Assembly: GCF_029167365.1 (NCBI RefSeq)
Contig: NZ_JARFNM010000001.1
Coordinates: forward strand, 1,294,001 to 1,358,000
Reading direction: 5' to 3'
DNA: 64,000 nucleotides
Origin: Amygdalobacter nucleatus
Lineage (GTDB): Bacteria; Bacillota; Clostridia; Saccharofermentanales; Fastidiosipilaceae
Below the pieces are notes generated by a model, which saw nothing but the letters and a program-made list of their open reading frames with translations, searched no databases and had not been told where the DNA came from. This document shows, piece after piece, positions 26,385-38,925 of the stretch. The stretch's first letter is position 1. Each line of letters begins with the position of its first letter. Made by a program: the position numbers and the translations under genes.

Positions 26385-26421
26385 AATAGGCAATAATATC
26401 CCAAAGATTTTATTGCCTATT
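26385..26421. terminator. Bidirectional terminator between eda and the LacI fusion gene
   Basis: AATAGGCAATAA (26385-26396) pairs perfectly with TTATTGCCTATT (26410-26421) across a 13-base loop. It starts 5 bp after the eda stop and includes the stop codon region of the convergent LacI-type gene. Confidence 0.75.
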
Positions 26422-28590
26422 AAACGATTTTAGATACAAATCTTGCAAATCCAACTGAGTTAATTTAAGTGCCTCTTCAGGAGTTTCCTGTAGTTTTTTC
26501 ACTCGCATTAAATGGCTACCTAAAATTGTTTCAAAATCAGCCTCACTAATCATTTGTGGTTTCTTACAGGCGATTGTTGGTCTTATTCCCAACTTAAAAT
26601 TATTACGCATATAAATAAGCCATGGATAGCAATCCAGTATTTCTCGCTGTTCATAAACAATTTTACAAGCTGAACTAGATCCTAACTCAACAAGCTCGCT
26701 TGCTATGCTTGGAGAACAAGCCCAATCTATAAATTTGTAAGCTGCTGCTTTGTTAGAAGAAAACCTGTTTATAGCTAACGAACCACCTCCCAAAAGCGGT
26801 TTAGCACCTGGAATAGTTGCAGCAGCTATTTCTAAATTGATTTTACTCTGAGCCTTTCTAATAAAGTTTGATGCATGATTACTAAAAACAATAGTTGTAG
26901 CTGTTTGCCCTTGCATGAAATTCTCTGTTATTTCCGACCAGTTTTGCACAGATTCATTTCCACTATAAGCATCAAAAGCTATAAAATCTTTAAGGCACTT
27001 CAAAACATCAGTATTTTGCAAATTCAAAAGGCCTCTAGCATCGTAATTTAAATTACAATCAGACAATAAACGTGGCAAAAAATAAGTTGTAATCGATGAC
27101 TCCTGTTTAGGCGACAACGTTGTACCAAATTTAACTGGCGAATGTGCTCTTTCCTTATGCGAAAAAAATCTACATATTTCTGTAAATTCAGAAAAATTTT
27201 TAGGTATTTGTAAAGGATGACCAGTAGTTTCTAAAAATGCTCTTTGTTCACGCATATCAGCAAATAAATCGCTTTGAAAAAAAAGCATTTGAACAGCAAT
27301 ATCAAAAGGTAGCCCATAAATGCTGCCGCTTACATTATAGTAAGCTTCTGGTAAATCAATATAATCTGCAAACCTTTTGCTACAACAAGCTTCTATCTCT
27401 GTCAAGCAGGCAAAATATTTTGGTGCTAAATAAGAAAATTCAGATGGATCTACTCTACATATATCCCATGCATTTTTCTCAATTATATATTTGCGAATAT
27501 CCTTTGCACTTAAAAGATTAATCTCAACATCAATATTATATTTCTGTTTAAATTTTGGCAAAAGATGTCCAAGAGCTCTTACGCCTGGTGTACTGTGCGC
27601 AATAAGTTGTAATTTCGTACTCTCGTGTTGCACAATTGTTGCCGACTGCATGTAGTTATAATAACTACTTTCCAAATAATTAACATTGGATGATAGCAAC
27701 GAGCCTCCAGTAATTTTACTAGCAGCAACATATCCTAGCTTGCAATAATTGAGGCAAGCACAATTGTAATATGGATTTTGGCATGGTCTTAAACTGCTTA
27801 TAGTATATATTTCAGGAATATTTTTTGTAGCTACATATATATCCCTTATTTTATCGGCCAAAAATTCACTACTTGTTATTATCGCTTTGTAGTTGATTGG
27901 ACTATTAAATATTTCATAGCAAGCTGACGATAAATTACCTTGTTTATTTTCATAAATATTAGATTCTGAAATATTTAATTCTTCTTTCAACGCCTGACAG
28001 TATATTTTTTGCTCAGGTATATCACTGCTTTCAGTAATAACAGCAATTTCAGGATCTGAAAATCTCTTCAATTTTATATACTTTGCAAAGTTCCGTGCTA
28101 TATCAGCGAAATCAAAGCTTAATGAACAACTATTGGGCAAATTACTACTTCTCTCCAAAAAAATAGTAGAAATATTATTTTTTTCCAGATCACCATATAA
28201 ACTTAAATCAGGATTCAATGAAGTCACGGCTAAAAGCCACTCAGCACGTAACGAAATTATCTTTTTCAACGCAGCTCTCTCAATATATAGCATCTCGTTA
28301 GTTAAAAATAATCTCACTTTATAATTATTTTCTTCGGCAAATGCATTTATTCCAGAATACAGATCTGCATACTTTGCCTCTGAAATATTAGGCAAAATTA
28401 CTGCAAGTATTTTAGTTTTTCCTTCTCTCAAAGAACTTGCTTTCTCATTAATAACATAACCCATTTGCGAAGCTATTTCTTCTACTAATTTAATTTTCGC
28501 ATAACTGACGTTCCCACGTTTATTAAGAACATTAGAAACAGTACCATGAGAAACACCTGCAGCTTCAGCTATATCTTTGATTGTCGCCAT
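26410..28590 (-). CDS. LacI-type regulator fused to a solute-binding-protein domain
   Basis: A 726-aa three-part protein. Residues 1-55 are a LacI HTH with hinge (MATIKDIAEAAGVSHGTVSN...LREGKTKILAVILPN). Residues about 58-320 look like a diverged periplasmic-binding-fold effector domain, as in LacI/CcpA. From about residue 325 a second, larger binding fold follows: KLQLIAHSTPGVRALGHLLPKFKQKYNIDVEINLLSAKDIRKYI... SGSIYGLPFDIAVQMLFFQ... GGGSLAINRFSSNKAAAYKFIDWACSP, which resembles an extracellular sugar-binding protein of ABC importers. There is no signal peptide or membrane helix, so the whole protein should be cytoplasmic. Standard LacI proteins end near 340 aa. It lies convergent to eda, just inside repeat copy B; control of the uronate or transporter genes by a sugar acid or oligosaccharide is inferred. 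Confidence 0.85.
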   Translation of the reverse strand: MATIKDIAEAAGVSHGTVSNVLNKRGNVSYAKIKLVEEIASQMGYVINEKASSLREGKTKILAVILPNISEAKYADLYSGINAFAEENNYKVRLFLTNEMLYIERAALKKIISLRAEWLLAVTSLNPDLSLYGDLEKNNISTIFLERSSNLPNSCSLSFDFADIARNFAKYIKLKRFSDPEIAVITESSDIPEQKIYCQALKEELNISESNIYENKQGNLSSACYEIFNSPINYKAIITSSEFLADKIRDIYVATKNIPEIYTISSLRPCQNPYYNCACLNYCKLGYVAASKITGGSLLSSNVNYLESSYYNYMQSATIVQHESTKLQLIAHSTPGVRALGHLLPKFKQKYNIDVEINLLSAKDIRKYIIEKNAWDICRVDPSEFSYLAPKYFACLTEIEACCSKRFADYIDLPEAYYNVSGSIYGLPFDIAVQMLFFQSDLFADMREQRAFLETTGHPLQIPKNFSEFTEICRFFSHKERAHSPVKFGTTLSPKQESSITTYFLPRLLSDCNLNYDARGLLNLQNTDVLKCLKDFIAFDAYSGNESVQNWSEITENFMQGQTATTIVFSNHASNFIRKAQSKINLEIAAATIPGAKPLLGGGSLAINRFSSNKAAAYKFIDWACSPSIASELVELGSSSACKIVYEQREILDCYPWLIYMRNNFKLGIRPTIACKKPQMISEADFETILGSHLMRVKKLQETPEEALKLTQLDLQDLYLKSFNRQ

Positions 28591-28825: not shown

Positions 28826-29698
28826 TTAATGTGTCATATAGTACTCATAAGCGGCTTCATCTGTGTAACCCTCATGTACTATCAATCCTATTGCTTTAGC
28901 CATTGTACGTGGTTTCTCGCTTTGGAAAATATTACGTCCCATATCAAGGCCATGTGCACCCTCAGATATAGCCTTATAAGCTAATATCAAAGCTTCCTTC
29001 TCAGGCAATTTTTTACCTCCAGCTACTACAATCGGCACAGGGCAAGCTGCTACAACTTCATCAAAATTGTCACAATAATATGTCTTAATAATATTTGCGC
29101 CTAATTCAGCTAGCATACGTGTTGCTAATTTAAAGAAACGTGATGTTCTTTCCATCTGCTTACCAACCGCTACAACGCCCATAACAGGAATTGAGTAACG
29201 TTGGCCCAAATTTACGCACTTAGATAAATTATCTAGGCTACTTAATTGACCATCAGCTCCAATAAAAGTTTGAACAGCTAGGCAATCAGCATTCATTCGT
29301 ATAGCATCTTCAATATCTACTGCTACCACTTCATGTGAAAGGTCATCGTTTAAGATTGAAGAGCCAGAAGTAACACGTAAGGCAATTGAATTAGTGAAAG
29401 CTGGCGAAACACAAGAACGTAAAGCCCCACGTGTGCCCATGAAAACATCAACTGCATCTTGTAACTCTGGAATTAATAAATCTAAGCGTTCCAAGCCTGA
29501 TGTTGAGCCCATGAAATAGCCATGATCAAAAGCAAACATCACTGTATTTTTGCTCTTAGGATTGAAAATACGAGCAAGATGCTTTTGCATACCCCAATCT
29601 AACGCATTTGCACCCTTCACAAAGAAAGGTTTGTTATTAGCAAAAGCCTGATCAAGATGATAATTTTTTGCAACTTTTAGTCCTTCTGTATCTGCCAT
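28826..29698 (-). CDS. lsrF: 3-hydroxy-5-phosphonooxypentane-2,4-dione thiolase (AI-2 degradation)
   Basis: LsrF transfers an acetyl group from processed phospho-AI-2 to CoA. The 290-aa protein follows E. coli LsrF closely: ALDWGMQKHLARIFNPKSKNTVMFAFDHGYF, GLERLDLLIPEL, ELGANIIKTYYC with the catalytic Lys, VVAGGKKLPEKEALILAYKAI and HGLDMGRNIFQSEKP. It belongs to the DeoC/FbaB class I aldolase family. It is the last gene of the lsr transporter operon, 76 bp after lsrB across a hairpin, and is followed by copy B of the long repeat. A plain FbaB-type aldolase is possible but the operon argues for LsrF. Confidence 0.93.
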   Translation of the reverse strand: MADTEGLKVAKNYHLDQAFANNKPFFVKGANALDWGMQKHLARIFNPKSKNTVMFAFDHGYFMGSTSGLERLDLLIPELQDAVDVFMGTRGALRSCVSPAFTNSIALRVTSGSSILNDDLSHEVVAVDIEDAIRMNADCLAVQTFIGADGQLSSLDNLSKCVNLGQRYSIPVMGVVAVGKQMERTSRFFKLATRMLAELGANIIKTYYCDNFDEVVAACPVPIVVAGGKKLPEKEALILAYKAISEGAHGLDMGRNIFQSEKPRTMAKAIGLIVHEGYTDEAAYEYYMTH

Positions 29699-29705
29699 TT
29701 TTCCT

Positions 29706-29750
29706 CCTTGTTAAAAAGCCCACCCACGTAAGATGGGCCTATTTTTTTAC
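29706..29750 (-). terminator. Hairpin between lsrB and lsrF
   Basis: On the minus strand GCCCATCTTACGTGGGTGGGC forms a short GC-rich stem followed by TTTTTAAC, directly before the lsrF ribosome site (AAGGAGG). It likely reduces read-through from the abundant binding-protein message into lsrF; a T-run is present on both strands. Confidence 0.6.
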
Positions 29751-29774
29751 TTAACTAATCAGATAGCACAACAA

Positions 29775-30944
29775 TTAGAAATTGTACTTATCTACATTCT
29801 CCTTATTAAACACAGCACGTTCAGGCAAAAGAACGACACCATTATTCTTATCAGCTGTCTTGTCATCTGGTACTAAACAATTGTTTGGCATAACCTCGAC
29901 TTCGCCGATGCCTGGAACATTAATCTTGTCACCTACTTTTACTTCGTTGCCAGCTGACAAATAAGCAGCCATGTAACAACCTAAAGCACCTTGAATTTCA
30001 CAATCCCAAAGTCCCCATTGCTCAATGACATCAGCCTTGCAATAGTCACGAATTGAATTTGGAGAAGCAAAGCCTGTGATAGTAATATCTTTTTTAGTCT
30101 TCTTAGCATTTTGTGCAGCTTTACATTGACCTGGCAAAGCAGTTGAATCGTTACAGATAATTAGGTCGACATCAGGATGAGCTTCCAAGATAGATGCACC
30201 AATACTTACGGCCTTTTCAGCATCTTGCTCAGAATAATAGTTGTCTGGAGCAATATTTTCCCAATTTGGGAAATTCTTCTTAATATAAGCTTCGCCAGCT
30301 ACCTGCCATGAGTTTTGGTCAGAAACTGTTGCTTGTGAATAATGCCAACAATACTTAATTTTATCTTTCTTAGGATCCTTACCACGCTTTTGCAAAGAAT
30401 CAGCACCCATATCAGCTAACATCTTGCCAAGCAATTCAGGCGTACCTTGTGAAACCATCAACGTACGAGCAGAGGACGAAACATCTGAGTCCCATGTAAC
30501 TACTGTTAAACCTTTTGATGTAGCCTCTTTCAGAGCAGCATCCAAACCAGTCGAGTCAACAGATGATACGCAAATAGCATCCGCACCTGTTGCAATCGCA
30601 TTGTTAATGACCTGAACCTGGTCAGCAACACTTGCATTTGAACTTCCTTGATAATCAACAGTAAATCCCCATTCTTTTGAGAATCGTTGAGCACCATTGT
30701 TAGCTGATTCAAAGAATGCATTACCCGTCAATTTAGGTACGAATACAACCGTCTTCCCCTTAATATCTTTGACGTCTTTTTGACCACCTGCAGCCTTCTC
30801 TGCATTCTCCGTCTTCTCTGCCTTTGTCTCAGCAGCTTCTGAATTCTTTTTTTCCGACTGCTTAGGTTGATTTTGTTGCTTCGAACATCCAACGAATGAC
30901 AAAGCCAAGACCAAACTTAACCCAACTGACAACAGCTTTTTCAT
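29775..30944 (-). CDS. lsrB: Autoinducer-2 binding lipoprotein
   Basis: LsrB binds extracellular AI-2 and delivers it to the LsrACD importer. The signal MKKLLSVGLSLVLALSFVGC has the lipobox Cys20, followed by a Lys/Glu-rich linker. The mature part matches E. coli LsrB along its length: VVFVPKLTGNAFFESANNGAQRF, VVTWDSDVSSSARTLMVSQGTP, ATVSDQNSW, GFASPNSIRDY, QWGLWDCEIQGAL, NVPGIGEVEV and the end NGVVLLPERAVFNKENVDKYNF. Residues that contact AI-2 (Lys in PKL, Asp in WDSD, DQ in SDQN, Pro in ALP) are present. A rhamnose or ribose binder is less likely given lsrF, lsrK and lsrR around it. Confidence 0.94.
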   Translation of the reverse strand: MKKLLSVGLSLVLALSFVGCSKQQNQPKQSEKKNSEAAETKAEKTENAEKAAGGQKDVKDIKGKTVVFVPKLTGNAFFESANNGAQRFSKEWGFTVDYQGSSNASVADQVQVINNAIATGADAICVSSVDSTGLDAALKEATSKGLTVVTWDSDVSSSARTLMVSQGTPELLGKMLADMGADSLQKRGKDPKKDKIKYCWHYSQATVSDQNSWQVAGEAYIKKNFPNWENIAPDNYYSEQDAEKAVSIGASILEAHPDVDLIICNDSTALPGQCKAAQNAKKTKKDITITGFASPNSIRDYCKADVIEQWGLWDCEIQGALGCYMAAYLSAGNEVKVGDKINVPGIGEVEVMPNNCLVPDDKTADKNNGVVLLPERAVFNKENVDKYNF

Positions 30945-30956
30945 ATAAAACCTCCT

Positions 30957-31958
30957 CTAATTATTAGCTTTCCTAGCTAAATAATTTCCCAACTTAAATT
31001 TAGTTCTGTTACTAAAAACAGAACGTCCAACAATGATTACCAATAGAAGTAAACCTAGTGGTATATCCAAATATTGGCTATTAACCTTAAAACATAGCGG
31101 TAATCCAAACCGCATCAAGCCGATAATCACAGACGCTAAAGCTGTACCTATTACGCTACCTTTACCACCACTACTTAAAGTTCCGCCTAACACAACAGAA
31201 GTAATAATTGGCAGAGTAAATGTAGCACCAATATCACTCTTACTTGTACCGATATAAGAAGTTAAAATAATGCCAGCAATTGCCGCACTAACAGCTGATA
31301 AAACGTATGTCAGCAAAATAATCCGATTTGTATTTATACCTGATAACCTAGCGGCATTCTCATTAACACCAACCAAAAACACCTTTCGGCCAAATTTTGT
31401 TTTTTCCAAAAGCACATATAAAATTGCCGTCAAGAAAGCAAATATTATCAATTGACTAGGGATTACACCAAACAGCCTAAACTTACTCAACATTAGAAAC
31501 GACTCTGGGAAGCCACTAATGCCTTTGTAGCTAGCCGTCTTAGATAAATTGGAAATAGAAAGTGCTACGCCTGAATAAAGGAAGCTACCTCCTAAAGTTA
31601 TAATCATTGCCTGAACTTTGACATATCCGATAAAAAAGCCAGAAATAGCGCCACAGATAGCTGAAAATGCAACGGCAAACAAGCAAGCAACCCAAATGTT
31701 AAAGCCAAAATCTTGCCAGAATACGCCAATCGTAATTGAAGCCAAGCCAACTAATGATCCAACTTGAATATCAATGCCACCCGTAATCATAACCAGTGTT
31801 ACGAATAAAGAAATAATGCAAATTGAAATAATATCATTGACACTGCTCAACAGTATACGAGGCATCAAAAACTTTGGATTAGCCATACCGAATATCACAA
31901 ATTCAGCTGCTATAATCACTAGTAAAAATAATTCCCAACGTTTAAATTTACTATTCAT
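30957..31958 (-). CDS. lsrD: AI-2 import system permease LsrD
   Basis: A 333-aa permease of the BPD_transp_2 (RbsC-like) family with about 8-10 hydrophobic helices. The family signature is seen in ITGGIDIQVGSLVGLASIT, the coupling region in KTKFGRKVFLVGVNENAARLSGINTNRI, and ILTSYIGTSKSDIGATFTLPIITSVVLGGTLSSGGKGSVIGT. It starts inside the lsrC stop (TAATG, one shared base) and is followed by lsrB after 12 bp. Assigned lsrD by order (A-C-D-B) as in enteric lsr operons. Confidence 0.9.
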   Translation of the reverse strand: MNSKFKRWELFLLVIIAAEFVIFGMANPKFLMPRILLSSVNDIISICIISLFVTLVMITGGIDIQVGSLVGLASITIGVFWQDFGFNIWVACLFAVAFSAICGAISGFFIGYVKVQAMIITLGGSFLYSGVALSISNLSKTASYKGISGFPESFLMLSKFRLFGVIPSQLIIFAFLTAILYVLLEKTKFGRKVFLVGVNENAARLSGINTNRIILLTYVLSAVSAAIAGIILTSYIGTSKSDIGATFTLPIITSVVLGGTLSSGGKGSVIGTALASVIIGLMRFGLPLCFKVNSQYLDIPLGLLLLVIIVGRSVFSNRTKFKLGNYLARKANN

Positions 31959-32971
31959 TAATGCTTAACCTCCGATTGACTTTTTTCTGCATGTTCTACA
32001 AGAATTTTCTGCTTATAGCATTTCAATAAATGTGCAGAACGTTTTTGCAACAAAGCATCTGCTACGACTAGGGTAATCAATAAAATACCAGTTATTGTAT
32101 TATCGTAATTGGATGACAAACCAATAAATACCAATATTCTGTTGATAGACGACATGATAACAGCACCAATGGCCACACCCAAAAGCGTTCCCTGGCCACC
32201 TACAAGACTTGCACCACCAATCACACAAGCTGCAATAGCTTTCATTTCATAACCATTTCCTGCTAATGGTGTGATAAAACCAATACGGGACGAATAGCAT
32301 ACGCCTGCAATTGCAGCCAAGACTCCACAAAGAACATATGAAATTAATTTGACTCTTTTTGCTTTTATACCGACTAACATAGCGCCGTTATAATTATCTC
32401 CAACAGCAATGAAGCTCCTACCTTTTTCGGTCTTTTTGACATAAAAATCTAAAATTAAGACAATTAACAACGTTACTGTATAAAATGCGGTTAACTCAGA
32501 TATAAGTTTAAATTGTGAGAGGCCTGTGAAATATGCTGGTAAATTTTCAACCCATGAACCATGCGTATATACATAGATCAAGCCACGACAAATACCATTA
32601 GTTGCTAACGTTAAAATTAGCGAAGGTATCTTTAAATAAGAAACGCAATAACCATTAATGTAGCCAACAATTATACCTATCAGCACAGCACTCAATAACG
32701 CTATAATCAGATTATAACCATCTCTTAGCAAGCTGCTACTCACAGCCGCTGCTAGGCCCAAAACCGCACCAATAGATACATCAATCTCACCTGTAAAAAT
32801 AACAAAAGCAATACCAACTGCTAAAAGTGTAAATACAACACTATCATTGAAGCAATTAAGCAAACTAGTCGTAGCTAAAAAGTCTGGATTAACCATACCA
32901 ACGACTGCAAACAGCAAAATCAAACAAGCTAAGCTACGAATTTCTTTGAAAGATTTGATTTTCTTTAACAC
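31958..32971 (-). CDS. lsrC: AI-2 import system permease LsrC
   Basis: A second RbsC-like permease (337 aa). It has FTGEIDVSIGAVLGLAAAVSSSLL, EKGRSFIAVGDNYNGAMLVGIKAKRVKLISYVLCGVLAAIAG and NGYEMKAIAACVIGGASLVGGQGTLLGVAIGA, the standard motifs of sugar and AI-2 permeases. I chose a GTG start at 32971 because AGGGAGG lies at good spacing before VLKKIKSFKE; the longer frame to 33007 begins with TTG inside lsrA. It would pair with LsrD to form the membrane channel. Confidence 0.9.
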   Translation of the reverse strand: MLKKIKSFKEIRSLACLILLFAVVGMVNPDFLATTSLLNCFNDSVVFTLLAVGIAFVIFTGEIDVSIGAVLGLAAAVSSSLLRDGYNLIIALLSAVLIGIIVGYINGYCVSYLKIPSLILTLATNGICRGLIYVYTHGSWVENLPAYFTGLSQFKLISELTAFYTVTLLIVLILDFYVKKTEKGRSFIAVGDNYNGAMLVGIKAKRVKLISYVLCGVLAAIAGVCYSSRIGFITPLAGNGYEMKAIAACVIGGASLVGGQGTLLGVAIGAVIMSSINRILVFIGLSSNYDNTITGILLITLVVADALLQKRSAHLLKCYKQKILVEHAEKSQSEVKH

Positions 32972-32984
32972 AGCTACGCCCTCC

Positions 32985-34514
32985 CTAATCAACACCAAAT
33001 GAGGCAATCATCAATTTTTCTTGACCAATTTCATCACGTTGATACTCAGAATGTAATTGGCCTTGACAAATAACAACCGCTCTTGTAGACAGTGAAACTA
33101 TTTCTTCCATATCTGAAGAAATTAAGATAATAGCTACACCTGATTTTTTAAGTTCACTTATAATTCGATAAATATCAGCACGTGCAGCAGCATCAATACC
33201 TCTAGTAGGCTCATCAAGAATGATAACTTTCGGCTTTGTAGACAAAGCACGAGCCAGCATTATCTTTTGCTGATTACCACCTGATAAATTGCCTACTTCT
33301 TGCTCGATACTATCGGTCTTGATTCTAAATTTTTCAACATATTCCTCCGTCGTTTGCTTCTCAGATTTCTTATCAATAAAGTAATTATTTTTTTGTGTAC
33401 GGCAAATCAAAAGTGCAGAACACAAATTATTTACTACTGAGCGAATTTTAAATAGTCCATGCACGCTTCTATCCTCAGTTACATAATTAATGCCCGAACG
33501 AACTATTTCTTTAGTTGGTAAATTGGTAATATCTTTACCAGCCAAAATAGCCTTTCCACCAAGAGCTTTTTGCAAGCCGAAAATAGTGGTAGCCAATTCT
33601 GTTCGACCAGCACCAACAACGCCAGCGATTCCCAATATTTCGCCCTCATATATATCTAAATTAATTTTATAAAATCCATACCCACTGTAATCTATAAGTC
33701 TGAGCACCGGCTCACCTTTTCGCTCAGGATTGCCTCCTGTACCCACTAACTTACCATCTTTTTCCTCCGCCTTAGCTTCATCATCTCTAGTAGCATTATC
33801 TGGTAACAATCCCCTAATTAAATCTTGCTCCGTAAATTCAGTTACTTTACCAGAAATCGTAATTATGCCATCACGCATAATTGCAATATTGTCAGCAACT
33901 CGAAAAATCTCACCCATACGGTGTGTAATATAAATTAACGCTTTGCCTTCTTTTTTTAATTCATCAATAATTTTATAAAGCGTTTCCACTTCATCAAATG
34001 TCAAAGCACCTGTCGGTTCATCTAAAATCAAAACACCAGCATTACGCAACAGCGCCCTTAAAAGTTCAACAATTTGTTGTTGCGCCACAGATATGCCTTG
34101 AGCCAAGCTCTTCATATCTAAGTCCCATTTATATTTTTTCAACAAATCATTCAACTTTTTGCTAAGCTCAGCACGGTCGCCTGGAATACCAATCAATACA
34201 TTCTCTTCAATCGTCATGTGTGGAAAAAGTAATGGCTCCTGTGGAACCATATAAATGCCTGAATTTAACGACTCACTCACCGAATTCAAACGCATATCCT
34301 TACCATCAACCTGCACTGAGCCTTGATCAGCCTTATATAAGCCCATAATAATTTTTACAAGTGTAGATTTTCCCGCTCCATTACCGCCTATTAGAGCCAA
34401 TGCCTCGCCAGCTTTAACGCTCAGTCCAATGCCTTTTAAGACTTTATTAGTGCCAAACGACTTGTAAATGCCTTCTACCTTTAGCATCACTTTAGAATCA
34501 CTATTCTCTTCCAT
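32985..34514 (-). CDS. lsrA: AI-2 import ATP-binding protein LsrA
   Basis: A 509-aa ATPase with two fused nucleotide-binding domains. The first has Walker A IGGNGAGKSTLVKI, a VAQQQIVELLRAL signature region and Walker B VLILDEPTGAL; the second has a degenerate P-loop (GVVGAGRTELATTIFG), signature LSGGNQQKIMLARAL and Walker B VIILDEPTRGIDAAARADIY. This layout is that of RbsA/MglA/LsrA sugar importers. First gene of the minus-strand lsr operon, 250 bp from lsrR with a strong promoter between them. Confidence 0.92.
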   Translation of the reverse strand: MEENSDSKVMLKVEGIYKSFGTNKVLKGIGLSVKAGEALALIGGNGAGKSTLVKIIMGLYKADQGSVQVDGKDMRLNSVSESLNSGIYMVPQEPLLFPHMTIEENVLIGIPGDRAELSKKLNDLLKKYKWDLDMKSLAQGISVAQQQIVELLRALLRNAGVLILDEPTGALTFDEVETLYKIIDELKKEGKALIYITHRMGEIFRVADNIAIMRDGIITISGKVTEFTEQDLIRGLLPDNATRDDEAKAEEKDGKLVGTGGNPERKGEPVLRLIDYSGYGFYKINLDIYEGEILGIAGVVGAGRTELATTIFGLQKALGGKAILAGKDITNLPTKEIVRSGINYVTEDRSVHGLFKIRSVVNNLCSALLICRTQKNNYFIDKKSEKQTTEEYVEKFRIKTDSIEQEVGNLSGGNQQKIMLARALSTKPKVIILDEPTRGIDAAARADIYRIISELKKSGVAIILISSDMEEIVSLSTRAVVICQGQLHSEYQRDEIGQEKLMIASFGVD

Positions 34515-34568
34515 CTTTTCCGTCCCTAAATGCGATATTTGTTTAGTGCCTTAACATTTGTTAATAGA

Positions 34569-34597
34569 ATAATATATCTCAGCGTTCAAATTGTCAA
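34569..34597 (-). promoter_or_regulatory. Promoter of the lsrACDBF operon
   Basis: On the minus strand TTGACA (plus 34592-34597) and TATTAT (plus 34569-34574) are exactly 17 bases apart, about 60 bp before the lsrA start. Near-consensus sigma-A promoter, a likely target of LsrR repression. Confidence 0.85.
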
Positions 34598-34705
34598 GGA
34601 TATTAATTGTTATTCCACAACTTTTTTGACACATTAGACTAATTTTCATATTTTTTTATGCATAATCGAAACTGCTTTAATTACATTTGTTTGCATACTC
34701 AACAT

Positions 34706-34734
34706 TTGACACAACTTTCAATATTAATTATAAT
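34706..34734 (+). promoter_or_regulatory. Promoter of lsrR-lsrK-cupin
   Basis: TTGACA (34706-34711) and TATAAT (34729-34734), both perfect, with a 17-base spacer, about 30 bp before the lsrR start. A second TTGACACA at 34626-34633 repeats the -35 octamer 80 bp upstream and may be a second promoter or an operator half. The lsrR ATG has only a weak ribosome site (GGCGG), which would keep repressor levels low. Confidence 0.88.
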
Positions 34735-34764
34735 TAACTCATCTTAAGTAACGGCGGTCTACAT

Positions 34765-35688
34765 ATGGAAGAAAATAAATTCATGTCCTTTGACGAAATA
34801 ATCATGACAAAAGTAGCTTGGTATTACTATATTGAAGGATTAACTCAGCAAGTAATTGCTGAAAGATTAGGCATTCCAAGAGTAAAGGTCGTTAAAATTT
34901 TGGAACAAGCCCGAAATTACGGTATTGTGCAATTCAGTTTTTGGCCTAATAATACTAAACGTATGCAATTGGAACAAGATATCATTAACCAATATGGTTT
35001 AGATGATATTTTAATCATCCCAACACCTTATAAGCCCAATCAAATTAATGAAAGTATTGCTCGTGCAGCTTCAATGTATATTTTTAATCGTTTACCTAGT
35101 GACGGTTATATCAACATAGGTTACGGTGACACTCCTAGTAAGGTACTAAATAATTTAGCAAGTATGAGTGAAAAGGCTTTAACTTGTATATCGTTAACAG
35201 GTGGCGTGAATTACTATTTACCAGATATTCGCTCCACAATTTTCAATGCAAAATTGCATTTGATTCCAGCACCACTTGTAATTTCTACCGAAGAGATGGC
35301 ACATGCAATTAAACAAGAGAATTCAATTCAAACTATCAATCGAATGATTAAATTTTCAGGTTTATCTGTCGTCGGTATAGGCGCAATGAATGCCGAAGCA
35401 ACTATCCTAAAATCAAATATTTTAAATAGAGATGACTTTACCATGTTAGAAAGACAAGGAGCCGTAGGCGATTTGCTCTGTCACTTTATTGATTCAGAAG
35501 GTAAAACCGTTGATTCAACTATTGACAAGCGATTGATTTCAACACCTTTATCTGAATTAAAATCTCTTAGCAACGTAATAGGTGTAGCTGGAGGTACGGA
35601 AAAAGTTGAAGCAATTAAAGCCGTTTTAAAAGGCCACTACATCAACGTTCTGATAACAGATGATGAAACAGCACAACAATTAGTTTAG
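34765..35688 (+). CDS. lsrR: LsrR-like transcriptional repressor (SorC/DeoR family)
   Basis: LsrR represses lsr genes until bound by phospho-AI-2. The 307-aa protein has an N-terminal HTH (MTKVAWYYYIEGLTQQVIAERLGIPRVKVVKILEQARNYGIVQF) and a SorC sugar-phosphate-binding domain (PSDGYINIGYGDTPSKVLNNL, TCISLTGGVNYYL, VVGIGAMNAEAT, DLLCHFIDSEGKTVDSTIDKRLIS, NVIGVAGGTEKVEAIKAVLKG). SorC proteins share this order. It heads the plus-strand operon with lsrK and the cupin gene, divergent from lsrA, the same arrangement as in enteric bacteria. Confidence 0.93.
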   Translation: MEENKFMSFDEIIMTKVAWYYYIEGLTQQVIAERLGIPRVKVVKILEQARNYGIVQFSFWPNNTKRMQLEQDIINQYGLDDILIIPTPYKPNQINESIARAASMYIFNRLPSDGYINIGYGDTPSKVLNNLASMSEKALTCISLTGGVNYYLPDIRSTIFNAKLHLIPAPLVISTEEMAHAIKQENSIQTINRMIKFSGLSVVGIGAMNAEATILKSNILNRDDFTMLERQGAVGDLLCHFIDSEGKTVDSTIDKRLISTPLSELKSLSNVIGVAGGTEKVEAIKAVLKGHYINVLITDDETAQQLV

Positions 35689-35699
35689 GAGGCAAAATA

Positions 35700-37283
35700 A
35701 TGAAATATTTAATGGCGCTCGATGCCGGTACTGGCAGCATTCGTTCTGTCATTTTTGATGAAAACGGGCAACAAATAGCAGTAGCCCAAACAGAATGGAC
35801 TCATCTAGAGGATCCTAGATTTCCGAACAGCATGAACTTCGATTATCATAAGAATTGGGATTTATGCAGAAACTGCATTCGGCAAGCTTTGCAAAAATCA
35901 AATATTGATCCAGCAGATTTATGCGCCATTTCGACTACTTGCATGCGTGAAGGCATAATAATTTACAACAAGAATGGCGAAGAAATTTGGGCTTGTGCAA
36001 ATGTCGATGCTAGAAGCGAAGAAGTGGCTGCTAAATTAGTATTAGATAATCCAGAGCTACAAAAAGCCGTGTATAAATCAAGTGGACAAACTTATGCCCT
36101 ATCAGCCATTCCTCGCCTACTTTTTATAAAAGAAAAGCAACCAGAAATTTATCAACAGATGGCCAAAATCGGTATGTTCAACGATTGGATGATTTACAAA
36201 TTAACAGGTCAATTAATCATCGAACCCAGCAACGGTTCCACTCTTGGTTTAATAAATTTGCAAACTCGTCAATGGGACTACGATATCATCAAAAAATTTG
36301 GTATTCCAACTAATTGTTTACCTGAAATTAAAGAACCAGGCACAGTTGTAGGTAATATTAAAGCTGATTTAGCTCACGATTTAGGTTTAGATGTTAACAC
36401 CAAAGTTATAATCGGTGGAGGTGATGCACAATTAGGATGTTTAGGTGTGGGCGCTTGTAAGGTCGGTTCTGCCATCGTGTTAGGTGGTAGTTTCTGGCAA
36501 TACGAATATAATACTAATTCAGCTCATACTGATTCAGATGCTAAAATACGCATGAATTGCTATATAACACCTAACTTGTGGCAATATGAAGCAATTGCTT
36601 TTCAGCCAGGTATGATCCTTAAGTGGTTTAAGAACGCCTTTGCTTTTCCTTTTGAAGCATTAGCCAAGCAAAATAATGAATCTATTTATTCTTACTTAGA
36701 AAATGGTGCCGTTAAGGTTCCTGCTGGTTCAAACGGTATGTTAGGCATTTTCTCCGACGAAATGAATTTCATCGCTTGGCGCCATGCTGCTTGTTCATTC
36801 ATCGATTTTAAAGCTGATGCTGCAAAATATAATATATTTACATTCTATCGTGCTTTGCTCGAGAATGCTTGCATGGTTACACGAGGACATATCAACGCTG
36901 TTGCTTCTTTAACTGGGCAAAAGCCAAATGAACTTATTTTTGCTAATGGCGCAAGTCAAAGTGATCTTTGTTGTCAAATTTTGGCAGATGTTACCAATCT
37001 ACCTGTAAAAAGGCCAATTGTTAAAGAAGCTACCGCACTCGGTGCCGCAATCTTAGCTTGCTATGGTTGTGGCTTATACAACGATCTCAATGCTTGTTGT
37101 GAGCACTTAGTACAATTTGAAAAAACATTCTATCCGCAAACAGAAAACATCAAAACATATGACAAGTTATATTCAAAGTGGCGTAAAGTCTACGCTACAG
37201 AGTTAGATTTAAGTGACAAAGGAATAACAAATTATATGTGGTGTGCCCCTGGCGCCAATCAGGCTATTAATCAAAATTCATAA
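35700..37283 (+). CDS. lsrK: Autoinducer-2 kinase
   Basis: An FGGY-family kinase that phosphorylates AI-2 after entry. The 527-aa protein has the N-terminal phosphate-binding motif LMALDAGTGSIRSVIFDENG, the family segment ISTTCMREGIIIYNKNGEEIWACANVDARS, IGMFNDWMIYKLTGQ, the ATP-binding part IIGGGDAQLGCLGVGACKVGSAIVLGG and the C-terminal FANGASQSDLCCQILADVTNLPVKRPIVKEATALGAAILA. AI-2 kinases start with this pattern; a xylulokinase-type function is less likely next to lsrR. Eleven bases separate it from lsrR, with AGGAGG upstream. Confidence 0.94.
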   Translation: MKYLMALDAGTGSIRSVIFDENGQQIAVAQTEWTHLEDPRFPNSMNFDYHKNWDLCRNCIRQALQKSNIDPADLCAISTTCMREGIIIYNKNGEEIWACANVDARSEEVAAKLVLDNPELQKAVYKSSGQTYALSAIPRLLFIKEKQPEIYQQMAKIGMFNDWMIYKLTGQLIIEPSNGSTLGLINLQTRQWDYDIIKKFGIPTNCLPEIKEPGTVVGNIKADLAHDLGLDVNTKVIIGGGDAQLGCLGVGACKVGSAIVLGGSFWQYEYNTNSAHTDSDAKIRMNCYITPNLWQYEAIAFQPGMILKWFKNAFAFPFEALAKQNNESIYSYLENGAVKVPAGSNGMLGIFSDEMNFIAWRHAACSFIDFKADAAKYNIFTFYRALLENACMVTRGHINAVASLTGQKPNELIFANGASQSDLCCQILADVTNLPVKRPIVKEATALGAAILACYGCGLYNDLNACCEHLVQFEKTFYPQTENIKTYDKLYSKWRKVYATELDLSDKGITNYMWCAPGANQAINQNS

Positions 37284-37307
37284 AAATAAAGCAACGAGGA
37301 GATAAAA

Positions 37308-37667
37308 ATGTTTAAACTAAATGAAACCGAAAAAGAATATCGCTTCAACAATGAAGGAGGCCCAAAATATTTAATGAAAGGGCCTAGAATGAAATTTGCA
37401 ATTGTGCGGTTTCGTCCTGGAGAAGACTTTCCTGCTCATTATCATGAGCAAATGGAGGAAAATTTTTATATTATGGAAGGAGAAATTGACATCTACATCA
37501 ATGGCCATCTAAACCACCTGACTAAAGGTGACTTTATCCATGTCGAACCAGGCGAAGTACATTATTGTATCAATCGCAGTTCCAGCCCAATGCGTATGGT
37601 TTCAACGCTAGCTCCATACAAGGAAGTAGATAAAGTTGAAGTGCCAGATTATCCCACCTACGACTAA
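37308..37667 (+). CDS. Small cupin-domain protein in the lsr operon
   Basis: A 119-aa single-domain cupin with the metal-binding motifs FPAHYHEQMEENFYIMEGEIDIYING (two His and a Glu) and EPGEVHYCINRS (third His). It starts 24 bp after lsrK with GAGGAG upstream, so it is co-transcribed. In enteric lsr loci this place is taken by lsrG, a ferredoxin-like-fold isomerase that converts phospho-DPD for LsrF; no LsrG-like gene is seen here. Small cupins include sugar-phosphate isomerases, so a role in that step is reasonable but untested. Confidence 0.85.
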   Translation: MFKLNETEKEYRFNNEGGPKYLMKGPRMKFAIVRFRPGEDFPAHYHEQMEENFYIMEGEIDIYINGHLNHLTKGDFIHVEPGEVHYCINRSSSPMRMVSTLAPYKEVDKVEVPDYPTYD

Positions 37668-37870: not shown

Positions 37871-38656
37871 CTAAATAATCTCCAACTTTCTTAAAGCATT
37901 GAAGATGCCATCTTCGCGCGGTGATGAAGTTACTAAATCAGCTGCCTCTTTCACAATCTCTGGCGCGCCAGCCATCGCTACGCCGATTTTGGCAGTCTTC
38001 AGCATGCCCATATCGTTGTTACCATCGCCAAAGGCAATACAGTTATCCGAGCTGATGTTTAAATGCGCACAAACTTGTTGCATCGCCCTTTCTTTGCCAC
38101 TATTTTTGGCAATAATATCGATACCTGTTTGGTGCCAGCGCAAACTCTTAGATTTGGTCAATTCCTGCATCAGTCTTTTTTCTTGCGCTGCATCGACAAA
38201 AACTATTGCTTGCAGAATTTTCCGCCTCGCAATGTCATAGAAAAGCTGAATTTTCGGAACAGAAGCGCCGATATACGACTGACCAGCAACCATTGCTTCG
38301 TCAACAAAGTTGCATGTATAATCCTTCTCTTCCAACAAAATGCAACTAGCTGGCTCATTTTTGCAAAACATCTCCAGCTTTGAGAGATCTTGAGGATCTA
38401 TCGCGTTTTCAATAATTTTCTTGCCATCCATGAAGCCCAATTGACCATTTAGATACACATAGCCATCAAAGCTAAGTCCGTTCAACATGCCTTCTTTGGC
38501 AATCTCATCAGGATGGCGACCTGTACAAACCACCGTCTTTATTCCTTTAGCTTGCAAAGATTGAAGCGCTTCTTTCGTACTCTCTGCGTAATAATGCGTG
38601 CCTTTCTCGATTAAAGTTCCATCGATGTCAAAAAAGGCTGCTTTAATTTCACTCAT
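37871..38656 (-). CDS. Cof-type HAD-IIB phosphatase
   Basis: A 261-aa HAD-IIB hydrolase starting MSEIKAAFFDIDGTLIEKG (motif I, nucleophile and acid Asp), with VVCTGRHPDEI (motif II), GKERAMQQVCAHLNI (motif III Lys) and AFGDGNNDMGMLKTAKIGVAMAGAPE (motif IV). This is the general sugar-phosphate/FMN phosphatase group. The start at 38656 is supported by GGGAG five bases upstream; a longer frame to 38671 overlaps the preceding small ORF. It is convergent to the lsrRK operon. Confidence 0.9.
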   Translation of the reverse strand: MSEIKAAFFDIDGTLIEKGTHYYAESTKEALQSLQAKGIKTVVCTGRHPDEIAKEGMLNGLSFDGYVYLNGQLGFMDGKKIIENAIDPQDLSKLEMFCKNEPASCILLEEKDYTCNFVDEAMVAGQSYIGASVPKIQLFYDIARRKILQAIVFVDAAQEKRLMQELTKSKSLRWHQTGIDIIAKNSGKERAMQQVCAHLNISSDNCIAFGDGNNDMGMLKTAKIGVAMAGAPEIVKEAADLVTSSPREDGIFNALRKLEII

Positions 38657-38667
38657 ATTTTCTCCCA

Positions 38668-38925
38668 TCACCTAATCTGCTTAACTCTAAAATAAAGTTC
38701 AGCCCACCACTTAAAGGCAGGCTGTTGCAAGACGTCTATTATAACACGTTCCATAATGGCACTTAAAATTTCGCTCATGTCAAAAATGGCACTAATTAAC
38801 TCAGCTAAAACGCTTGCTAAAGTCAAAGCAGACACTAAGCCAAAAGCGAGTACAATTGTGCAAAACAAACGTAACGCAAGGTATCCAGGCCCAAAATTGC
38901 TTAATTTCCCGACATTCGCAGCCAT
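38668..38925 (-). CDS. Small possible membrane protein, unknown
   Basis: An 85-aa open frame starting at an ATG at 38925 and ending 12 bp before the HAD start. It has a hydrophobic segment (YLALRLFCTIVLAFGLVSALTLASVLAELISAIF) that could span the membrane once or twice, and a basic C-terminus. No ribosome site is clear and no family is recognised. The close spacing to the following gene favours translation, but open frames also exist on the other strand. Low confidence. Confidence 0.35.
   Translation of the reverse strand: MAANVGKLSNFGPGYLALRLFCTIVLAFGLVSALTLASVLAELISAIFDMSEILSAIMERVIIDVLQQPAFKWWAELYFRVKQIR

Follow-up and report, generated by a model that had tools for sequence, protein, structure and literature searches.

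Autoinducer 2 (AI-2) is a signal widely shared among bacteria, and its destruction is known mainly from Escherichia coli and Salmonella. Phospho-DPD is isomerized by LsrG, which enables its cleavage with CoA by LsrF (PMC8016206), and LsrG is reported to act on phospho-AI-2 in Salmonella (PMC2561040). The E. coli genes (lsrRK-lsrACDBFG) form divergent lsrACDBF and lsrRK arms; in this species, and likewise in Klebsiella and Enterobacter, lsrG comes after lsrF, and lsrK has no small partner gene behind it. The alphaproteobacterial systems of the Sinorhizobium meliloti type have an lsrACDB/lsrR-lsrK layout with a small gene right after lsrK. This gene encodes an ABM-domain LsrG homolog (found directly after lsrK in Sinorhizobium, Alloyangia, Paracoccus, and Ensifer; the three that were scored reached 99 to 110 bits on the LsrG model), and a class II aldolase-like gene is present instead of lsrF.

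Cupins have been connected with AI-2 in the literature that we searched. The RASTtk/PATRIC role "Cupin domain protein in autoinducer 2 (AI-2)-related operon" is printed for Bacillus sp. B87, a member of the Bacillus cereus group whose list contains lsrR, lsrK, lsrD, lsrC, lsrA, lsrB, lsrF, and the cupin, with no LsrG named (PMC8876208). This role is an annotation label that carries neither a function nor a survey, and it resembles the cupin described here by description only; the B. cereus group enters our study through this literature table, its sequences being absent from our genome sample. In yeast, the cupin Cff1p is required for formation of the AI-2 mimic MHF and is presumed to isomerize or epimerize a sugar (PMC8092285); it likewise ties a cupin to small AI-2-like compounds, but its role is to make a mimic, not to degrade phospho-AI-2. 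A full-text literature search, with most subscription papers outside its scope, returned no paper on the function of an lsr cupin. The association has thus been noticed already by annotators, while its function, its breadth, and its pattern relative to LsrG appear undescribed.

RESULTS

An eight-gene lsr locus in Amygdalobacter nucleatus

We studied a stretch of 64,000 nucleotides (the window) of the A. nucleatus assembly GCF_029167365.1 (contig NZ_JARFNM010000001.1, positions 1,294,001 to 1,358,000, forward strand), and all coordinates are positions within it. The lsr locus spans 28826 to 37667, and all eight genes were found on the strands named in the original prediction, lsrF, lsrB, lsrD, lsrC, and lsrA on one and lsrR, lsrK, and a gene for a 119-residue cupin on the other.

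28826 to 29698, minus strand: lsrF, 3-hydroxy-5-phosphonooxypentane-2,4-dione thiolase (NF006081, 393 bits, above the cutoff of 297)
29775 to 30944, minus strand: lsrB, AI-2-binding lipoprotein (NF011937, 326 bits; PDB 6dsp, 505 bits)
30957 to 31958, minus strand: lsrD, permease (NF011612 as top match, 250 bits)
31958 to 33007, minus strand: lsrC, permease (NF011961 as top match, 263 bits)
32985 to 34514, minus strand: lsrA, ATP-binding subunit (NF011967 as top match, 517 bits)
34515 to 34764, no strand: divergent promoter region (match to the sigma-70 consensus only)
34765 to 35688, plus strand: lsrR, transcriptional regulator (LsrR model NF011947 as top match, 224 bits, under the cutoff of 486; PF04198)
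35700 to 37283, plus strand: lsrK, AI-2 kinase (NF008187, 686 bits, above the cutoff of 528)
37308 to 37667, plus strand: single-domain cupin of 119 residues, proposed LsrG stand-in (PF07883; membership in the post-lsrK subfamily; conserved residues; fold)

The components of an Lsr system for AI-2 uptake and processing, LsrACD, LsrR, LsrK, and LsrF, are thus present in one divergent locus, which shares with the enteric system its genes, its lsrACDBF/lsrRK layout, and its kinase and thiolase families. It differs from that of E. coli in having no lsrG after lsrF and a cupin gene after lsrK, and in the absence of luxS. LsrK and LsrF exceed the curated NCBIfam cutoffs; for LsrA, LsrB, LsrC, LsrD, and LsrR the Lsr models rank first with scores under cutoffs that appear to have been set on enteric proteins. 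LsrB scores 505 bits against PDB 6dsp, a solved structure named "Autoinducer 2-binding protein LsrB." It had been claimed that LsrB keeps the AI-2 contact residues, and this holds in part: in the alignment K, D, D, Q, and P are retained at the positions that we take to be the contacts, and LPAA is replaced by LPGQ, a change that 6dsp also carries.

By consensus match only, a perfect sigma-70 pair (34706 to 34734, plus strand) is predicted as the promoter of lsrR-lsrK-cupin, and an 11/12 pair (34597 to 34569, minus strand) as that of lsrA. The stop codon of lsrK and the start of the cupin gene are 24 bases apart, and the sequence preceding that start, AACGAGGAGATAAAA, contains a good ribosome-binding site. 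Two flanking genes were also noted. A gene for a Cof-type HAD hydrolase, which might act on phosphorylated by-products, adjoins the cupin gene (37871 to 38671, minus strand). On the other side, positions 26410 to 28590 (minus strand) encode a 726-residue protein that joins a LacI DNA-binding domain and an ABC solute-binding domain (SBP_bac) in one chain, adjoining genes for a glucuronate isomerase and a KDPG-aldolase-like protein.

Residues and fold of the cupin

The protein matches Cupin_2 (PF07883) with 70 bits. The metal ligands H44, H46, E51, and H85 of its two cupin motifs (three His, one Glu) do not vary among 75 sequences, nor do E50, E83, N89, and the basic residues R12, K20, and K109; together with R27, the last three make up a set of four conserved basic residues, which could bind a phosphate group. 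Its AlphaFold model (pLDDT of 88; mean pLDDT of 91 to 98 per block of ten for residues 31 to 110) is all-beta, with cupins as the best fold matches. Compared with the LsrG family (NF007791), the protein has a cupin fold and no ABM ferredoxin-like fold, and it is not homologous to LsrG.

The best Foldseek matches include cupin phosphomannose isomerases of Thermococcus and KdgF, and quercetinases and TcmJ-like cyclases are also listed. The Thermococcus proteins (PDB 7zvm and 7zvy) rank at the top of the small cupins in the Foldseek and profile comparisons; they are sugar-phosphate isomerases by the name that their depositors gave, and they differ from the A. nucleatus protein in sequence (about 29% identity), in substrate, and in genomic setting. 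Together, this fold likeness and the invariant basic residues make a sugar-phosphate isomerase plausible. Cupins vary widely in function, and the fold matches leave the substrate unfixed.

LsrG and LuxS are absent

The claim that the locus has no ABM-domain LsrG was borne out, and no lsrG homolog turned up elsewhere: the ABM domain (PF03992) had no match in the lsr locus or anywhere in the A. nucleatus genome (1.61 Mb, 95.5% complete). In the same genome we looked for LuxS, as had been suggested, and found none, so that A. nucleatus is probably a consumer of AI-2 from neighboring species that makes none itself. It is in the minority in this respect: of 30 further genomes carrying a cupin-type locus, 24 possess LuxS.

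Across 50 cupin-type genomes, none reached the family cutoff of the LsrG model (0/50). Weak generic ABM matches were found in seven of them, all at or below 37 bits on this model, against 99 to 110 bits for the lsr-linked alphaproteobacterial homologs and 194 bits for Salmonella LsrG; because genuine lsr-linked homologs score 99 to 194, these are most likely ordinary ABM proteins, and those of Lacrimispora and related genomes were rejected as LsrG. The one of these that we inspected lies among nitroreductases. An iterated LsrG profile drew in generic ABM proteins and was left unused.

The cupin gene is linked to lsrK across several phyla

The original prediction had called for a neighborhood survey of lsrK-cupin pairs lacking lsrG, and had named a lack of co-occurrence as the result that would count against it. 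When 84,980 species genomes were scanned with the A. nucleatus LsrK as the only query, disregarding the cupin, 80 loci were obtained, and in 72 of these the next gene after lsrK, on its strand and at a median distance of about 32 bases, encodes a cupin of the same subfamily. The subfamily is present in 77 of the 80 lsrK genomes, the five additional copies being at or near contig ends: one is cut off, with its start at the contig end (L099), and four are on other contigs near a contig end (L054, L094, L109, and L113), preceded by the tail of lsrK in three of the four. In the remaining three, all metagenome assembled (L059, L084, and L108), the cupin was not found; the contig of L059 stops soon after lsrK. 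The hosts are Clostridia, Bacilli, Spirochaetota, Fusobacteriota, and Gammaproteobacteria (Succinivibrionaceae and relatives), and the pairing is found in dozens of gut and oral bacteria of several phyla.

Against the A. nucleatus protein, the linked cupins score 130 to 182 bits and unlinked cupins in relatives at most 46 bits, a separation by which the lsrK-linked proteins are a dedicated subfamily. Searching in the other direction, with a cupin profile, we found the subfamily in one genome each among 398 of the phylum (A. nucleatus itself) and 300 Bacilli, and in 14 genomes among 195 Treponemataceae, and all 16 carry lsrK directly upstream; the roughly 890 genomes searched in this way contained no member of the subfamily without lsrK. 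Linkage is thus tight in both directions. With dozens of genomes sharing it, the arrangement is not due to chance. No copy of the cupin turned up when viral contigs were scanned.

All eight genes are present in 43 loci. In 11 loci (L043, L045, L064, L065, L079, L092, L095, L096, L102, L106, and L114) there are only lsrF, lsrK, and the cupin, with no LsrABCD in the stretch around the locus, which extends at least 9.5 kb on both sides in 5 of the 11. Since these loci keep lsrF, lsrK, and the cupin without a nearby transporter, the cupin belongs, judged by gene content, to the catabolic core and not to transport. The hosts of the transporter-less loci include termite-gut Treponema and some Lachnospiraceae. 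In another Lachnospiraceae genome (L141), lsrK, the cupin gene, and lsrF lie on one strand in this order, which is the proposed order of the reactions.

Some loci have unusual settings. Plasmid pMGB0747-1 of Lacticaseibacillus paracasei (L125), typed as conjugative by PLSDB and a vehicle for the spread of the lsr system, carries a whole lsr locus with the cupin, RbsD, and a Cof-type HAD hydrolase, the last adjoining lsrF. On a plasmid of Deinococcus psychrotolerans (L127), lsrK and the cupin gene lie beside an MFS transporter gene in a reduced form of the pathway, with no lsrF or lsrG within the 18 kb read. A divergent LsrK (L032, G413:C30), which scores 589 bits and so exceeds the cutoff, is also followed by a small cupin gene; its product is only about 20% identical and was rejected as a member of the subfamily, and it possibly represents a second recruitment of a cupin.

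Salmonella and Deinococcus

The Salmonella lsr locus shares with that of A. nucleatus a cupin of the same subfamily (41% identical), whose gene begins 14 bases after lsrK, and differs by the presence of lsrG. By its position this cupin is STM4071, which two Salmonella expression studies list together with lsr genes (PMC4804515 and PMC11000858). It keeps H44, H46, E51, H85, and N89 and has lost E50, H78, R27, and K109, which elsewhere are fixed or nearly so; because of these losses, the Salmonella cupin may be degenerate or changed. Beside lsrG in the Salmonella sequence used (L126, NZ_CP092913.1) there is an epimerase gene, probably lsrE. This sequence is labeled a plasmid yet contains pfkA and fieF and so looks like a piece of chromosome.

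In a tree of LsrK built by a quick method (no bootstrap, modest support, midpoint rooting, A. nucleatus on a long branch), cupin-only loci and LsrG-type loci form two branches, with Deinococcus on the LsrG side. Deinococcus has lsrK and the cupin with no LsrG in the region, and the Salmonella and Deinococcus cupins are sisters. The simplest reading, which we offer as a lead only, is that lsrK and the cupin may have been paired before the split in LsrK and that LsrG arrived later.

Origin of the locus in A. nucleatus

Horizontal transfer had been considered possible, and the evidence is divided. LsrK was found in none of 97 relatives of the same order, which makes transfer plausible; the locus was probably acquired, or has been widely lost in the order. 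Its composition, however, is not foreign (G+C content of 37.3%, compared with 36.9% for the window), and base composition and tetranucleotides give no sign of recent transfer at the locus; any transfer would therefore be not recent, or from a similar genome. The LsrK tree names no donor. The view that lsr loci are less well known in Clostridia-like bacteria needs correction: cupin-type loci are widespread in Clostridia, although in a small share of genomes.

DISCUSSION

Our results suggest that the A. nucleatus locus represents a second, widespread type of AI-2 uptake and degradation locus that looks functional. In the pathway that we propose, LsrACDB would import AI-2 and LsrK would phosphorylate it to phospho-DPD; the cupin would isomerize phospho-DPD to 3-hydroxy-5-phosphonooxypentane-2,4-dione, the step of LsrG in E. 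coli; and LsrF with CoA would convert this product to dihydroxyacetone phosphate and acetyl-CoA. What we observed is which genes are present, that LsrG is missing, that the cupin is tightly linked to lsrK across phyla, and that its metal site is intact; from this we infer the cupin reaction, which we judge to have a slightly better than even prospect of being the correct one and which is the most likely role. In the LsrG step a hydroxy-ketone undergoes a 1,2-shift, which formally resembles the isomerization of a sugar phosphate, and metal-dependent cupins perform sugar-phosphate isomerization via an enediol carbonyl shift. LsrF, which requires the isomerized substrate, is retained in cupin-type loci, and the metal site, the basic residues, the fold matches, and the part of Cff1p in making an AI-2 mimic add to the plausibility of the isomerase reading. 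The Deinococcus locus, which pairs lsrK and the cupin but showed no lsrF in the 18 kb read, and the variety of cupin functions speak against it.

Whether the cupin is a nonhomologous replacement of LsrG, as had been proposed, is a narrower matter. The lack of LsrG and the tight linkage to lsr genes agree with this proposal, but the two proteins are not strictly exclusive, since Salmonella carries both lsrG and the cupin, and a strict replacement is no more than possible. The description of the cupin as occupying the place of LsrG also fits only in part: in enterics lsrG follows lsrF, but the alphaproteobacterial LsrG homolog does occupy the slot after lsrK. We entertain tentatively, and as clearly less than probable, the reverse order of events, in which the cupin would be the original phospho-DPD isomerase, the ABM-type LsrG a later proteobacterial replacement, and the Salmonella cupin a relic.

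An alternative that we consider rather unlikely is that the cupin acts on phospho-DPD or a related species at a different step, such as opening a ring or mutarotation, exchange between epimers or hydrates, or disposal of a dead-end phosphate, and that LsrG is simply dispensable, the isomerization running slowly unaided or by another enzyme. KdgF-type cupins, which catalyze ring opening or tautomerization of small uronates, are among the close fold matches, and RbsD adjoins the cupin in the L. paracasei plasmid locus. Both genes are kept in one Salmonella locus, where STM4071 rises with the lsr genes (PMC4804515). Some isomerase would nevertheless still be expected ahead of LsrF where LsrG is missing, we saw no other conserved companion of lsrK and lsrF that could take this part, and the Salmonella cupin has diverged at otherwise invariant residues, all of which weigh against this alternative.

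It is improbable that the cupin is instead a regulator or a sink, binding phospho-AI-2 and tuning LsrR in the manner of the ligand-binding cupin domain of AraC-type proteins. Weak Pfam similarity to AraC_binding and the presence of lsrR in the same operon could be read in this way, but the cupin has no DNA-binding domain, loci in which neither lsrR nor a transporter could be found still have it alongside lsrK and lsrF, and the invariance of all of its metal ligands is not what a ligand sensor would be expected to need. That the cupin is a chance neighbor of lsrK, as the abundance of cupins and the 46 bits reached by unlinked ones might suggest, has a negligible probability and is refuted by the survey, in which the subfamily accompanies lsrK in 77 of 80 genomes and never occurs without it in the cupin-first searches.

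If the cupin is the isomerase, AI-2 degradation in many bacteria, among them gut Clostridia, oral and termite Treponema, Succinivibrio, and lactic acid bacteria, would use an enzyme that has never been assayed, and most bacteria with a cupin-type AI-2 locus may carry out the LsrG step with a cupin. Surveys relying on LsrG as their marker would then overlook such consumers of AI-2, and the cupin would offer a way to detect AI-2 quenching in the gut or to block it.
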